In this document: one piece after another, positions 8,252 through 33,405 of the stretch
Position numbering within the stretch: position 1 is the first letter of the stretch
Layout of the letters: the number at the start of each line of letters is the position of its first letter
NCBI GenBank assembly: GCA_019456255.1
Contig: VRUG01000005.1
Span: forward strand, 62,001 to 126,000
DNA: 64,000 nucleotides
Source: Planctomycetota bacterium
GTDB taxonomy: Bacteria; Planctomycetota; Phycisphaerae; Sedimentisphaerales; Anaerobacaceae
Reading direction: 5' to 3'
The notes under the pieces: model-generated
The model's input: only the letters and a program-made list of their open reading frames with translations
The model's database searches: none
What the model was told of the DNA's origin: nothing
Made by a program: the position numbers and the translations under genes

Positions 8252-8746
8252 ATGGAACAGCATGTCCATATCAGCGAGTCGTTAAGAAATGATGCTACGG
8301 AGTTCGGTGATTTTTTGACGGCATTTTCGTTTAAGAAAACGAAGGGGGGTATCAGTATCAATATCGTTGGTTGCATGGAACTTCTGGAGCTTAAGGAGCG
8401 GGCTGACTGTATACGCGGTGTTATCTATCTGCATCGTCAGACTGTTCCTGTGATAGACTTGCAGAAGAAACTTGGCTTGGGAGCTACTAAGATTAGCAGT
8501 GAGGGCTGTATATTGTTGACGGAAGGGAGGAGCGGCGATGATTGTCAGGTTGGTATCATCGTTGAAGATATGGCAGATGTGTTGGCGATTGTTGGCAAGG
8601 ATGTTGAGGAATTGCGAAGCAGGGCGTCGAATCATTATGACTGCAGCAGTTCTGCGACGAGGAAGTATTTTAATCTTGCTGACGCGTTGATGGACATGGA
8701 CGAGATAATCGACGAGATCAAGCTGGAAGAATTTCAGGGCACGTAG
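8252..8746 (+). CDS. CheW-like chemotaxis coupling protein (orphan)
   Basis: 164 residues. A CheW fold covers most of the protein: FKKTKGGISINIVGCMELLEL, IRGVIYLHRQTVPVIDLQKKLG, a regulatory-strand segment QVGIIVEDMADVLAI and a final strand. The central 'RGxixxxgxxxPviDL' motif is the family signature. CheW normally links chemoreceptors to CheA, but no chemotaxis gene is nearby. The first 22 residues are an extra N-terminal extension of no recognised type. About 115 bp of gene-free sequence separates it from the cupin gene. Confidence 0.85.
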   Translation: MEQHVHISESLRNDATEFGDFLTAFSFKKTKGGISINIVGCMELLELKERADCIRGVIYLHRQTVPVIDLQKKLGLGATKISSEGCILLTEGRSGDDCQVGIIVEDMADVLAIVGKDVEELRSRASNHYDCSSSATRKYFNLADALMDMDEIIDEIKLEEFQGT

Positions 8747-8752
8747 GGCTTG

Positions 8753-8954
8753 TTATTGTGCGTTTGCGGCGAAGAGCTGGGGTTGATAGGTGGAGTTTTC
8801 CCAGTTTTCGGGGTACGCGTTTTGTGTGTCAGTGAGTTTGGTTTGGCTATCGGTGTGTGTGTTTAGAGTCTTAGCTGTTTGTTTGGTTTCGCTGCACCCA
8901 ATACAGAACAGTAACATCATAGATGGACAGAAAAAAAACAATCTTCCGTCTCAT
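8753..8954 (-). CDS. Small lipoprotein, apparently frameshifted at a T8 tract
   Basis: The reading frame ending at 8753 codes ...MMLLFCIGCSETKQ and about 45 polar residues, with a lipobox FCIGC, but lacks a usable start. In the next frame an ATG at 8954, seven bases after GAGAGGG, reads MRRKIVFF and then hits the wrong frame at a run of eight T (minus strand; 8931-8938). Removing one T joins the two into MRRKIVFFCPSMMLLFCIGC, a complete lipoprotein signal. So the gene is either phase-variable, corrected by polymerase slippage, broken, or misread at the homopolymer. The mature part is Thr/Asn/Gln-rich with no known domain. Confidence 0.6.
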
Positions 8955-9126
8955 ATTCATACCCTCTCAATCCGTCTTGCATTTCGCTGGGGCTATGTAA
9001 GGCCTATTATACCATGGGTATTATAGGGAATACTATTGTGGGAATTACGTATTTTCAGGTAAAATTTTGAATAAAATCCGAGAAAACGTCGGGCAAATAA
9101 GCGATTTGTTGCGAAAAAAGTTTTTT

Positions 9127-27096: not shown

Positions 27097-27633
27097 GTGC
27101 TAAAAAAAGTGCTGAAAAAAATCCTAAAATACGTGCCGATATTTGTTTTGGGGATAGTTTTTGCGGTATTATGCTTTTTGATGTTGAATATTGCAATGGA
27201 GCCTGTATCGACTCCGGAATACTGCGGGAGCAGCTGCCATGAGATGGGCAATGCCTACCAGAGTTGGGAGCTTTCGGTTCATGGAGCCAATAGAATTGGG
27301 TATCGAGTCGAGTGTGTAGATTGCCACCTTCCTCCGAAAGAGAAATTTTTTACGCATATTTTTGCTAAGGCTTATAAGGGTGCCAAGGACACTTATAAGC
27401 ATCATTTCGGGGGCGAATATGATGGCGAGCAGCAGCGTGAAAATGTTCTTGCGAGTTTGCCGAACGAGAACTGCCTTAGCTGTCATGATGATTTGCTTAA
27501 GAAGCCGTCACGTTCGTTTGTGAGGAAGGCGCATCTTAAGGTTTTAAAACCAACGGATGACTTTGAATATCGCTGTATTGAGTGTCATGAAAATGTAGGC
27601 CATGAGCGTGAAAGTAAATTGTTCTCACCGTAA
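27097..27633 (+). CDS. NrfH/NapC-like tetraheme cytochrome c
   Basis: 178 residues. An N-terminal membrane anchor (residues about 12-32) is followed by four c-type heme sites: CGSSCH, CVDCH, CLSCH and CIECH. The spacing and the early 'PEYCGSSCHEMG' segment match NrfH/NapC quinol dehydrogenases, which feed electrons from menaquinol to a periplasmic multiheme reductase. GAGGAG precedes the GTG start by about 8 bases. It lies 20 bp upstream of the octaheme cytochrome gene, the arrangement of haoC-haoA and nrfHA modules. Confidence 0.9.
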   Translation: MLKKVLKKILKYVPIFVLGIVFAVLCFLMLNIAMEPVSTPEYCGSSCHEMGNAYQSWELSVHGANRIGYRVECVDCHLPPKEKFFTHIFAKAYKGAKDTYKHHFGGEYDGEQQRENVLASLPNENCLSCHDDLLKKPSRSFVRKAHLKVLKPTDDFEYRCIECHENVGHERESKLFSP

Positions 27634-27653: not shown

Positions 27654-29031
27654 GTGGGATTGTCAAATTTTGGAAAGAGAATCGTATTTACGTTGCTATT
27701 AGTTGTCAGTGTTGTGGTTTTGCCGGCTTATTGTCAGGTAAATACAGGTCAGTTGGCATCACTGATGCTAAAGGAAATACGAGTTGAACGAGCTGTTTCT
27801 GAAGAGGCGAAGGCATGTATCGAGTGCCATTTGAATCAGAATTTTGGACTTGTAGCAGATTGGGCACAGGGCAGGCACGCTCACGCTAATGTCAGTTGTA
27901 TTGATTGTCATAGTGCAGGCGCAGCTGACAAAGATATAAGCACAGGTCATCTGGATTATTCAGAAGTGAAAATAAGTGCTATCGTTTCGCCTAAGGACTG
28001 TTCGAGATGTCACCCGAGCGAGGCGGCGGAGTACAGTCGCAGCAAGCACGCCAATACCCTTGAGATTATCTGGAAAATTGACCCGTGGCTTAATCACGGT
28101 ATGAATGTGGCTTAATCACGGTATGAATAATGATATTGAGCGTGTGACTGGATGCTTCTATTGTCACGGTACGGTGGTAAAAGTTGAGGATGGCAAGTTT
28201 GACAGTAAGACCTGGCCTAATGTTGGTGTTGGCAGGATAAATCCTGACGGCAGTAAGGGCAGTTGTTCGAGTTGTCACACGAGGCATAAATTTTCTGTTG
28301 CAGAGGCTCGTAAGCCTGAGGCGTGCGGTCAATGTCACTTAGGGCCGGACCATCCGCAGATAGAAATTTATAAAGAGTCAAAACACGGCGATATTTATGA
28401 CGCTGAAGGTCATACATGGAAATGGGATTCTGCTCCGGGGACGTGGACTCCGGGAATTGATTACAGGACTCCGACCTGTTCGGTTTGTCATATGTCTGGT
28501 ATCAATGGTGTGGCTACTTCGCACGATGTTACCGAACGTCTTGCGTGGGAGACTCAGGCGCCGCTAACGGTCAGGCCCAGTGAATTTAAGCCCTGGCCCG
28601 CAAAAACAGACTGGAGGACCGAGCGCGGGAAGATGAAGCAGGTATGTCTTGCGTGTCATTCTCCGGCGTGGACCGACGGGCATTTCGAGTATTTTGACGC
28701 GGTAGTAGCTAACTATAATGATGTTTATTACAAGCCGATGAAAAAGCTTAGCGATGAGCTTTATGAGAAGAAGCTGATGAGTAAGGAAAAGCCATTGGAT
28801 GAAAAACTTGAGATAGACCTTTATGAATTGTGGCACCATGAGGGCAGAAGGGCGAGATTCGGTGCGGCGATGATGGCTCCGGATTATACGTGGTGGCATG
28901 GTTTTTATGAGATGAAGAAAAGGTGTATGGATATTGAAGAGCAGGCAGAAAAATTGCTCAAGAGCGGAAAGCCTGGTAAGGTTTTTGATGTTAGGGGAGC
29001 TGGCGGTAATACTACTAAGCCTAAGTTCTGA
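27654..29031 (+). pseudogene. Octaheme hydroxylamine-oxidoreductase-like cytochrome, frameshifted
   Basis: Two overlapping frames (27654-28115 and 28105-29031) are halves of one gene. The first has a signal peptide and heme sites CIECH, CIDCH, CSRCH; the second has CFYCH, CSSCH, CGQCH, CSVCH, CLACH, then DYTWWHGFYE as in the HAO family. Removing one copy of the 22-bp tandem repeat at the junction restores a single frame of about 451 residues with eight hemes. HAO-like enzymes oxidise hydroxylamine or hydrazine, or in the NrfH-linked form reduce nitrite or hydroxylamine to ammonium. As read, the product would stop after three hemes. The rest of the frame is intact, so the break is recent, variable or an assembly artefact. 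Confidence 0.85.
28085..28128. repeat. Exact 22-bp tandem duplication inside the HAO-like gene
   Basis: 28085-28106 and 28107-28128 are identical. 22 is not a multiple of three, and the duplication introduces the TAA at 28113-28115. Confidence 0.95.
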
Positions 29032-29367: not shown

Positions 29368-29396
29368 TTGACAGAAAAGCTGTATGTTTATATAAT
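29368..29396 (+). promoter_or_regulatory. Consensus promoter of the rrf2-cys operon
   Basis: TTGACA (29368-29373), 17 bp, TATAAT (29391-29396): a perfect sigma70 match, 34 bp before the Rrf2 start. Such a strong core promoter directly before a repressor gene suggests autoregulation, with the operator overlapping or just after the -10. Confidence 0.75.
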
Positions 29397-29430: not shown

Positions 29431-29868
29431 ATGCGAATATCTAAGAAATGCCAATATGCATTGCGAGCAGTTTTTGAGCTTTCGTTGCGTAATAGCGGCC
29501 ATCCGGTGAAGATAAGCGAAATTGCGAAGGCGCAGGGTATTTCGGGTCGTTTTCTTGAGATCATATTGAATCAGCTTCGCCATGCGGGTTTTGTTGAATC
29601 GAGGCGTGGCAGTGAAGGTGGTTATTTACTGGTGAAGTCGGCAGAGACATTGACGGTTGGCGATGTTATCGAGGTTGTTCAGGGGCCAGTATCTGTGATA
29701 GGCAATGAGGACAATCATCTGGATTTTTTCGGTAGTTTTGCGTTTGAGCAGTTGTGGCAAGAGGTTAATGATACAGTGTCGCAGATATATCGGAATACAA
29801 CCTTTGCAGAGCTGATAAAAAAAGAGAAGGCCCGGAAGAGAGCATCGGTGCCGAATTATACGATATGA
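29431..29868 (+). CDS. Rrf2-family transcriptional regulator (CymR-like)
   Basis: 145 residues. The N-terminal winged helix is typical: MRISKKCQYALRAVFEL, ISEIAKAQGISGRFLEIILNQLRHAGFVESRRGSEGGYLL. The three clustered cysteines that hold the [2Fe-2S] in IscR and NsrR are absent (only Cys7), so it is closer to CymR-type regulators of cysteine metabolism. As first gene of the sulfate-assimilation operon it is the obvious candidate to control it, probably sensing cysteine, O-acetylserine or a CysK complex. That sensing mode is inference. Confidence 0.88.
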   Translation: MRISKKCQYALRAVFELSLRNSGHPVKISEIAKAQGISGRFLEIILNQLRHAGFVESRRGSEGGYLLVKSAETLTVGDVIEVVQGPVSVIGNEDNHLDFFGSFAFEQLWQEVNDTVSQIYRNTTFAELIKKEKARKRASVPNYTI

Positions 29869-29896: not shown

Positions 29897-30673
29897 ATGT
29901 TAGAGCAATTAGCAAAATCAATTATCGCAGAGACGTCAGGCTATTCGGCTGAGGAGCTCTTGAAGTACGCTGTCGATAAATTCGGCGGGCGTGTTGCTTT
30001 GGCTTCGAGTTTCGGCGTGGAGGATCAGGTGCTGACTGATATGCTATGCAAAATTACCGGCAGGCCGAAATCTACTTTGGTCGACGGCACGCCGAAAACT
30101 TTCACTCCGAATGCCGCCGGGCCGAGAATTTTCACATTGGATACCGGCAGGTTGGCTCAGCAGACTTATGATGTGATGGATGAGACGAGAAAAAAATATG
30201 GCATCAAGATAAGGGCGTTGTTCCCTGATTACAAACAGATAGAAGAGATGGTTACCGAGCATGGCCCGAATCTTTTTTACGAGAGTGTGGAATTGCGAAA
30301 GCTGTGCTGTAAGTATCGAAAGATAGAGCCCTTGAAAAAAGAGCTTGCTGATTTAGATGTGTGGATTTGCGGGCTAAGGGCGGGGCAGTCAACTACGCGA
30401 ACGGAATTGCAGTCGGTTCAGGTTGATGAGGCGTTTGGTCTTATTAAGATTTGCCCGCTGGCAGATTGGACAGAGCAGCAGGTGTGGGACTACATCAAAG
30501 AAAACGATGTTCCTTACAACAAGCTGCACGACGAGGGTTATCCAAGTATTGGATGCGAGCCTTGCACGCGAGCGATAGAGAAGGGCGAAGATGTTCGTGC
30601 GGGTCGTTGGTGGTGGGAAGAGCCTATACAGAAAGAATGCGGTTTGCATCTAAAAGCTAAGGATGAGAAATAA
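29897..30673 (+). CDS. cysH: Adenylylsulfate (APS) reductase
   Basis: 258 residues. PAPS-reductase fold with [14 protein letters not shown], an unusual insertion of about 18 residues ([15 protein letters not shown]) before the TLDTGRL motif, and the double-Cys motif KLCCKYRK paired with GCEPCTR. The CC...CxxC set binds a [4Fe-4S] cluster and marks APS rather than PAPS reductases. It reduces APS to sulfite. GAAAGGA precedes the ATG; the gene overlaps cysD by one base. Confidence 0.92.
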
Positions 30674-31554
30674 TGGACCATTTGGAAGTACTCGAATCAC
30701 AAAGCATGTTCATTTTGCGTGAAGCGTATCGCAGCTTCGGCGACCTTGTGATGCTGTGGTCAATCGGCAAGGATAGTACGGTTCTGTTGTGGCTGGCTCG
30801 CAAAGCGTTTTTTGGCCATGTACCGATTCCGCTTATGCACATTGACACTACGTTTAAGGTTCCAGCGATGATAGAATACCGCGACCGCTTCGCAAAGCAG
30901 TGGAAGATCAACATGATAGTCGGCAAAAATGAAGAGGTTTTGGAAAGTAAAGAAACTTTTCCCGACGGTAAGACCAATCGTCTCCAGTGCTGTGCTTCAT
31001 TAAAAAGTGAAGCCTTAAAGCATACGCTAAGCGGAGACTGGCCTCGCTGGGTACTCAATCACAAGAGCGGTGAATACGAGAAGCAGCTTAACGGCAAGCC
31101 TTTTACGGGCGTTATCGTTGGTGCGAGGGCTGATGAAGAGGGCAGTCGAAGCAAAGAAAGATATTTTTCGCCGCGTGACCGGCATAACGATTGGGACGTT
31201 GCTGACCAGCCGCCGGAGCTTTGGAACCAGTTTAAAACTGATTTTGCACCCGGAACGCATGTTCGCGTCCATCCGCTGCTCGACTGGACGGAGTTGAATA
31301 TCTGGGAATATATCGAAAGAGAGAATATTCCGATCATCGACCTGTATTTTGATAATGGTGAGGGCAAGCGGTATCGTTCGCTGGGCTGTTATCCGTGCAC
31401 GTCGTCGGTTGATTCGACGGCAAAGAATGTGCGTGAGGTTATTGCTGAGCTGCGAGGCGGAAAGTTCGCGAATATCGCGGAGCGTTCGGGAAGAGAGCAG
31501 GACAAAGAAGATGGCAGCGGCCTGGAGACACTTCGTCGTGACGGCTATATGTAA
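30673..31554 (+). CDS. cysD: Sulfate adenylyltransferase subunit 2
   Basis: 293 residues. ATP-PPase loop SIGKDST (about residue 34), [23 protein letters not shown] and the C-terminal [11 protein letters not shown] segment followed by a Arg-rich tail ([22 protein letters not shown]) are hallmarks of CysD. With CysN it makes APS from sulfate and ATP. The start overlaps the cysH stop (ATAATGG), so translation is coupled. Confidence 0.96.
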
Positions 31555-31572
31555 TAGATATTGGAAAAGAAT

Positions 31573-33405
31573 ATGAGTCAAGTTGAAGAGAAAAATATTA
31601 AGTCAGAAAAAACATCGTCAGAGCAGATGAACATTGTTGTCATCGGCCACGTCGACCACGGAAAAAGTACGGTTGTCGGCAGGCTTTTGGCAGATACGGG
31701 GTCACTGCCCGAGGGTAAGCTCGAAGATGTTAAGGAGAGGTGCAAAAGAAACTCTAAGCCTTTTGAGTACGCCTTTCTTCTTGACGCCTTAAAAGACGAG
31801 CAGGCACAGGGTATTACTATCGATTCGGCGAGATGCTTTTTCCGTTCGGCGAAAAGAGAGTACATTATCATCGACGCACCGGGACATATCGAGTTTTTGA
31901 AGAATATGATATCTGGTGCCGCTCGCGCAGAAGCGGCGATGCTGGTGATCGATGCCCATGAGGGCGTTCAGGAAAATTCTCGCAGGCATGGTTATATGCT
32001 TAGTATGCTTGGTGTGAAGCAGGTTGTTGTTCTTGTAAACAAAATGGACCTGGTTGATTATTCCCAGACAGTGTTTGATAGTATAAAGGAAGAATACTTA
32101 GCTTTCCTGAAAGAAATTGATATTGAGCCGATGTCTTTTATTCCTGTTAGTGCTCGTGAGGGCGTTAATATTGTTTCGGTATCTAAGAAGATGTCATGGC
32201 ATGATGGGCTGTCAACTCTTGAGGCATTGGACAGTTTTGTAAAAGAGGCTTCTCCGGTCGACCAGCCTTTCCGTTTTCCGGTTCAGGATATTTACAAGTT
32301 CACCGAACAGGGCGACGACAGAAGAATTTTTGCCGGCAGGATAGAAACCGGAACGATAAATGTTGGTGACGAAGTGGTGTTTTTGCCATCAGAAAAAAAA
32401 TCCAGGATTTCCAGTATTGAAGGCTTTAATGTCGCTGAGCAGTCGCAGGCTTTTGCGGGTCAATCTACGGGCTTTACCCTCGCCGAGCAGATTTATGTCA
32501 AGCCGGGCGAGATGATGTGCAAAGTTGATGATACATTGCCTATTACCAGTACGCATCTAAAGGTGAACATTTTCTGGATGGCTCGTCAGCCGATGATCAA
32601 AGGTAAGAAATATAAGATAAAACTCGCTGGTACGAGGGTCCCTGTTTGGCTAAGGGATGTGGTGACAGTTCTCGATGCTTCGGATCTGACGACCGATTCG
32701 AATCGCCAGCAGATAGAACGTCACGATATAGCTGAGTGCGTACTTGAGACGCTAAAGCCATTGGCATTTGACATTACGCAGAATATCGCTCAGACCGGGC
32801 GTTTCGTTATTATCGATAATTATGAGATTGCCGGCGGGGGCGTTGTGCTCGACGAGGTTTATATCCCGACCAGCAGGATAGAACGTCGCGTTCAGCAACG
32901 AGAAAATAACTGGCAACGCAGCCGCATTACGCCTAAAATGAGATCTTCGAGATATAACCAACGCTCTACGCTGGTGCTGATTACCGGAGCGGCAGGTGAC
33001 GGAAAAGAAAATCTTGCCAAGGCACTTGAAGAGGACCTGTTCGAGAGTAAGAGGATGGTTTATTATCTCGGGATATCGAATTCGCTGCTTGGTATCGAAG
33101 ATAATATTGATGAGTCGGGCGAAAGAGATGAAAGCCTAAGGCGTCTTGGTGAGGTGTCGCACTTGTTTACCGATGCGGGGCTGATATTAATTACAACGAT
33201 TGACGACCTCGATGACTTTGAGCTTGAAATGATAAATACATTGAACAGGCCCAACGATTGCAGGGTTGTTAATATCGGCGCGAACCAGTTCACAAAAGCA
33301 ACGGTTGATTTGCAGGTTGATAATTTAGATAGCCAGAAAGAAGCTATTAAGAAGATAAAAGATTTGCTCGCGGAAAAGAAATATATTGTTGATTACTCAA
33401 TTTAA
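31573..33405 (+). CDS. cysN: Sulfate adenylyltransferase subunit 1 with degenerate APS-kinase tail
   Basis: 610 residues from the ATG at 31573 (GGAAAAG 5 bases upstream). The CysN GTPase part has [24 protein letters not shown] and NKMDL, then two beta-barrel domains to about residue 445. The C-terminal 150 residues align with CysC in position, but the P-loop is [10 protein letters not shown] instead of GxSGxGKST, and the DGDNxR and KGLY-type catalytic segments are not recognisable. APS-kinase activity is therefore unlikely. That fits the APS-type CysH next door, which needs no PAPS. Confidence 0.93.

Follow-up and report, generated by a model that had tools for sequence, protein, structure and literature searches.

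How a conserved octaheme HAO-like cytochrome gene of an uncultured planctomycete came to be deposited as two reading frames, and whether such a break can be undone, is the question raised by this locus. An earlier note on the DNA had proposed that slippage between one and two copies of a short repeat reversibly turns an NrfH-linked nitrogen-oxide reductase on and off, and had named a recent mutation or an assembly artefact as alternatives. The repeat itself is present as described there, with TRF and an exact scan agreeing on a 22-bp unit in two directly adjacent copies of 100% identity on the forward strand (copy 1 at 28085-28106, copy 2 at 28107-28128). The array (28085-28128) is exactly 44 bp long; the units are flanked by different bases, which leaves the junction without microhomology. 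Within the window, that is, the whole 64-kb stretch of DNA analysed, this is the sole exact array with a unit longer than 15 bp, multiples of shorter units aside, and the probability of an adjacent 22/22 match arising by chance in 64 kb is negligible. A short inverted repeat (CCGTG-N7-CACGG, 28083-28099) straddles the left edge of copy 1; it is statistically weak (z about -1.4) and could possibly act as a polymerase pause hairpin.

Copy 2 introduces a +1 frame shift, which divides the gene into two fragments on the forward strand. The 5' fragment (ORF1, 27654-28115) encodes 153 aa with three CxxCH sites, begins with GTG, has a signal peptide-like N-terminus and ends at a TAA (28113-28115) that lies within copy 2. 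The 3' fragment (ORF2, 28105-29031) encodes 308 aa with five CxxCH sites and keeps the active-site Asp-His (GPDHPQ), and it has no signal peptide of its own. The chain is interrupted in the window as deposited; when only one copy is read, the frame is open over 451 codons and contains all eight CxxCH sites. Thus the two same-strand frames with three and five sites, the frame shift and stop brought in by the duplication, and the eight-heme protein of about 451 residues obtained on deleting one copy all stand as they had been claimed. The ATG of ORF2 at 28105 overlaps the end of ORF1 by 11 bases, an arrangement that invites the idea of two functional proteins, with ORF2 translationally coupled to ORF1 across the 28105/28115 overlap or reached by programmed frameshifting. 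This idea is highly improbable, however, given that the overlap is produced by the duplication itself (the ATG arises where the two copies meet) and not by a conserved frameshift site, that the relatives described below have no two-part coding at this point, and that the 3' half is without the signal peptide needed for c-type heme attachment.

By sequence homology, the interrupted gene is a member of the octaheme cytochrome c/HAO superfamily (OCC). For the 3' half, PF13447 (multihaem cytochrome) is hit at E=3e-29 and NF052343 (hydrazine dehydrogenase) at E=2.8e-20, the latter with a score far under the cut-off of its model. A profile of 38 intact relatives, used to search for structure homologues, matched the Ignicoccus hospitalis octaheme cytochrome (4qo5; E=4.5e-62), the Kuenenia reducing HAO-like protein (6h5l; E=6.5e-35) and Nitrosomonas HAO (1fgj; E=1.2e-29), and 4fas and 6hif were matched too. 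The similarity to solved HAO/OCC structures covers hemes 5-8 and the C-terminal helices, and together with the PF13447 match it supports the earlier identification of an octaheme HAO-like cytochrome. Residues D219/H220 of one relative (L019), which are invariant in the 38 relatives, align with D267/H268 of N. europaea HAO, which we take to be the catalytic, distal Asp-His pair of the active site. An AlphaFold model of L019 was of moderate confidence (pLDDT 62) and was used for fold class only; its C-terminal part matches HAO chains with Z about 11 (4n4n_E, rmsd 4.2 over 188 residues), and weak matches also came from several other multiheme proteins and helical bundles. The model agrees with an HAO-like fold in the C-terminal part of this relative.

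Oxidative HAO, whether hydroxylamine or hydrazine oxidising, carries a tyrosine cross-link to heme 4 (P460). The alignments to 1fgj stop short of the C-terminal site of the cross-link tyrosine, where an invariant PDYxWWHG motif is found. Outside anammox bacteria, the majority of HAO-like enzymes are reported to be of a predicted reductive type, with His at the key site, and nitrite or hydroxylamine reduction is the likely activity of the gene product by analogy with its family (PMC12758564).

Directly upstream of the HAO-like gene, on the same strand, lies an intact gene for an NrfH/NapC-like tetraheme quinol dehydrogenase (27097-27633), which matches PF03264 (NapC/NirT/NrfH family; E=5.9e-28) and, below its cut-off, TIGR03153 (NrfH; E=7e-24). 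An NrfH-like multiheme gene occupies the same position at 76 of the 82 loci with enough upstream sequence, and the proposed NrfH link is well founded in this respect. Heme site 1 of the NrfH-like protein, presumably the quinol-side heme as in known NrfH, reads CGSSCHEM (CX3CH; 27220-27245), and the other three sites are CX2CH. The CX3CH form is found at heme 1 in most of the Phycisphaerae NrfH partners compared (CGSRCHEM, CGGKCHEM, CGTACHEM), and CX2CH is kept there in the partners at L021 and L029. The gene is the only NapC/NrfH gene above cut-off in the host genome, in which neither a match to NrfA nor a second full HAO-like gene was found.

Several other features of these loci were recorded. 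At L098 (JAFDLS010000160.1, draft), the NrfH-like gene upstream of the HAO-like gene is apparently split into two overlapping frames and is a candidate for a broken or mis-assembled cytochrome gene. In L019 (MohnsGC08_bin174), a second multiheme pair (168 aa with four CxxCH, and 423 aa with eight) is located about 2.5-4.3 kb upstream of the orthologue, which suggests a paralogous NrfH/octaheme pair. Further along the window, a perfect sigma-70 consensus promoter (TTGACA-17-TATAAT, 29368-29396) stands just before a regulator-like ORF of 145 aa (29431-29868) that resembles Rrf2 by eye, and the ORFs at 29897-33405 look like a cysH-cysD-cysN sulfate assimilation cluster.

The ancestral state of the segment can be judged from relatives, which were collected from 14 of 60 related genomes and from 80 loci of GTDB species genomes, mostly of Phycisphaerae and Desulfobacterota and with no congener of the host genome in the set. 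The 3' half alone served as the query, which kept the search from favouring intact genes. Nearly all relatives that no contig end truncates carry the eight heme sites in a single uninterrupted frame, with a single copy of the segment around IWKIDPWLNHGMNNDIER, and the intact frame measures about 450-500 aa in nearly all full-length homologues, or longer when counted from stop to stop. This comparison with related genomes, which had been proposed earlier as a check, shows an unbroken frame to be normal for nearly all of them. None of the relatives compared contains the 22-bp segment twice, the distant homologues L015-L017 being too divergent at the duplicated segment for comparison. Across 92 related gene sequences (132 kb, a few genes being represented in both collections), exact tandem units reach 9 bp at most, and none is at the duplication site. 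Since the relatives carry one copy and no tandem unit longer than 9 bp, one copy is ancestral and two copies are derived, and the two-copy state is, on the sequences compared, private to the host genome among the genomes seen.

The gene shows no sign of long-standing loss. The repeat copies are identical, and there is no further stop or other disruption. Private changes number 4 at 199 near-invariant columns, the GTG start included, compared with 0-10 in intact relatives, and the root-to-tip distance of 0.85 lies among the values of Phycisphaerae relatives (0.78-1.05). The nonsynonymous divergence of each half is within the normal range; synonymous sites (dS) are saturated and no dN/dS ratio was derived. 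An old or decayed pseudogene was therefore rejected, as conservation and branch length are those of intact relatives. Given that both halves are as conserved as these relatives, the break must be very recent, if it is real at all.

The comparison with relatives favours a one-off event. The explanation preferred here, with a probability of roughly one half, is that a recent single 22-bp tandem duplication interrupts a conserved octaheme HAO-like gene and causes loss of function. Assembly error is ranked almost as likely and is a distinctly possible source of the array, in that two ends overlapping by 22 bp may have been joined unmerged, or a gap wrongly closed, with the real gene being intact. 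The host genome is a 4.07-Mb draft of 340 contigs (94.5% complete) with 100-N scaffold joins elsewhere, and spurious pseudogenes are known in low-coverage assemblies (PMC11017572). Furthermore, the duplication is exact, and the absence of decay that marks the gene is equally expected of an artefact, while no microhomology at the edges marks a slippage event; these points count against a recent duplication. However, the site lies inside a 177 kb contig and the whole window is free of N. When about 1.57 Mb of the host genome was scanned for exact tandem arrays (units of 14-300 bp), no array but the 22-bp one was seen to put a recognisable long gene out of frame. Arrays in long reading frames were nearly all multiples of three, and the remainder fell in short frames or in the L225 stretch. 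This isolation fits a sporadic event and not a recurring k-mer artefact, and no recurring assembly artefact of fixed length, whether 22 bp or another, is seen over the scanned sequence. The L225 stretch (8671-9083, G000:C333) is itself repeat-rich, with exact tandem units of 14, 35 and 132 bp in an open frame of 209 codons.

The reversible switch that had been proposed, a phase-variable ON/OFF control by slippage between one and two copies, has two attractions, namely that losing a copy restores the frame exactly and that an undecayed gene is expected if it is often ON. It is nevertheless very unlikely. The reverse step, from one copy to two, has no repeat to act on and only the weak hairpin at the left edge, which argues against an evolved reversible switch, and with no repeat in the ON state, switching OFF would lack a specific site. 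Two copies, or a tandem unit longer than 9 bp within the gene, are seen in no relative, the junction lacks microhomology, and no similar repeat is found in the other recognisable long genes of the scanned genome. The claim of on/off slippage is accordingly not supported, and it is the two alternatives named beside it, recent mutation and assembly artefact, that best fit a private, undecayed and isolated array. A family of phase-variable genes was also considered and rejected, given the lack of repeats in orthologues and of any comparable array in the scanned genome. No near-identical second copy of the region was found in the host genome, in which contigs shorter than about 3 kb read as N; a small contig with the alternative allele could thus have gone unnoticed. 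Less probable still is a bet-hedging switch of the NrfH-linked octaheme reductase, with both alleles maintained in the uncultured planctomycete population; a stable allele mixture, if true, would provide an uncommon example of phase variation affecting respiratory nitrogen metabolism in such an organism. Literature searches turned up no relevant report of metagenomic switches based on short tandem duplications.

If the recent duplication is real, the ancestral state would have been one conserved gene for a periplasmic octaheme HAO-like reductase that received electrons from the adjacent NrfH-like quinol dehydrogenase. The 22-bp duplication may have arisen by strand slippage or template switching in replication. 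The +1 shift would then place a stop after the third heme and yield an exported three-heme stub, and re-initiation at 28105 would yield a five-heme fragment without a signal peptide, which would stay heme-free in the cytoplasm. Heme attachment to c-type cytochromes is periplasmic and requires a signal peptide, so the 3' fragment is not expected to mature; with the stop after the third heme, this would leave the gene off in cells with the two-copy allele. The gene could be restored by precise deletion of one copy. Cells with a real two-copy allele would lack the octaheme HAO-like enzyme, and annotation would wrongly score as missing, or as two genes, the one full octaheme HAO-like reductase gene of this organism, whose genome has no detected NrfA. 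The consequence beyond the host genome is probably small.

The locus can be set against three known systems. Simple-sequence contingency (phase-variable) loci resemble it in that repeat copy number sets the reading frame, but here one 22-bp unit is present twice, in one genome alone among those compared, whereas the repeat tract that characterises a contingency locus, both when it is ON and across related strains or species, is absent from the 92 related gene sequences. With the OCC/HAO superfamily (4qo5, 6h5l, 1fgj) the gene shares the eight CxxCH hemes and the HAO active-site Asp-His, although it is shorter (about 450 aa) and interrupted. The haoA-haoC/NrfH pairs of Epsilonproteobacteria are NrfH-linked octaheme HAO-like pairs, and the likeness to them lies in the NrfH-like gene directly upstream, whereas the Phycisphaerae NrfH partners mostly carry CX3CH at the first heme.
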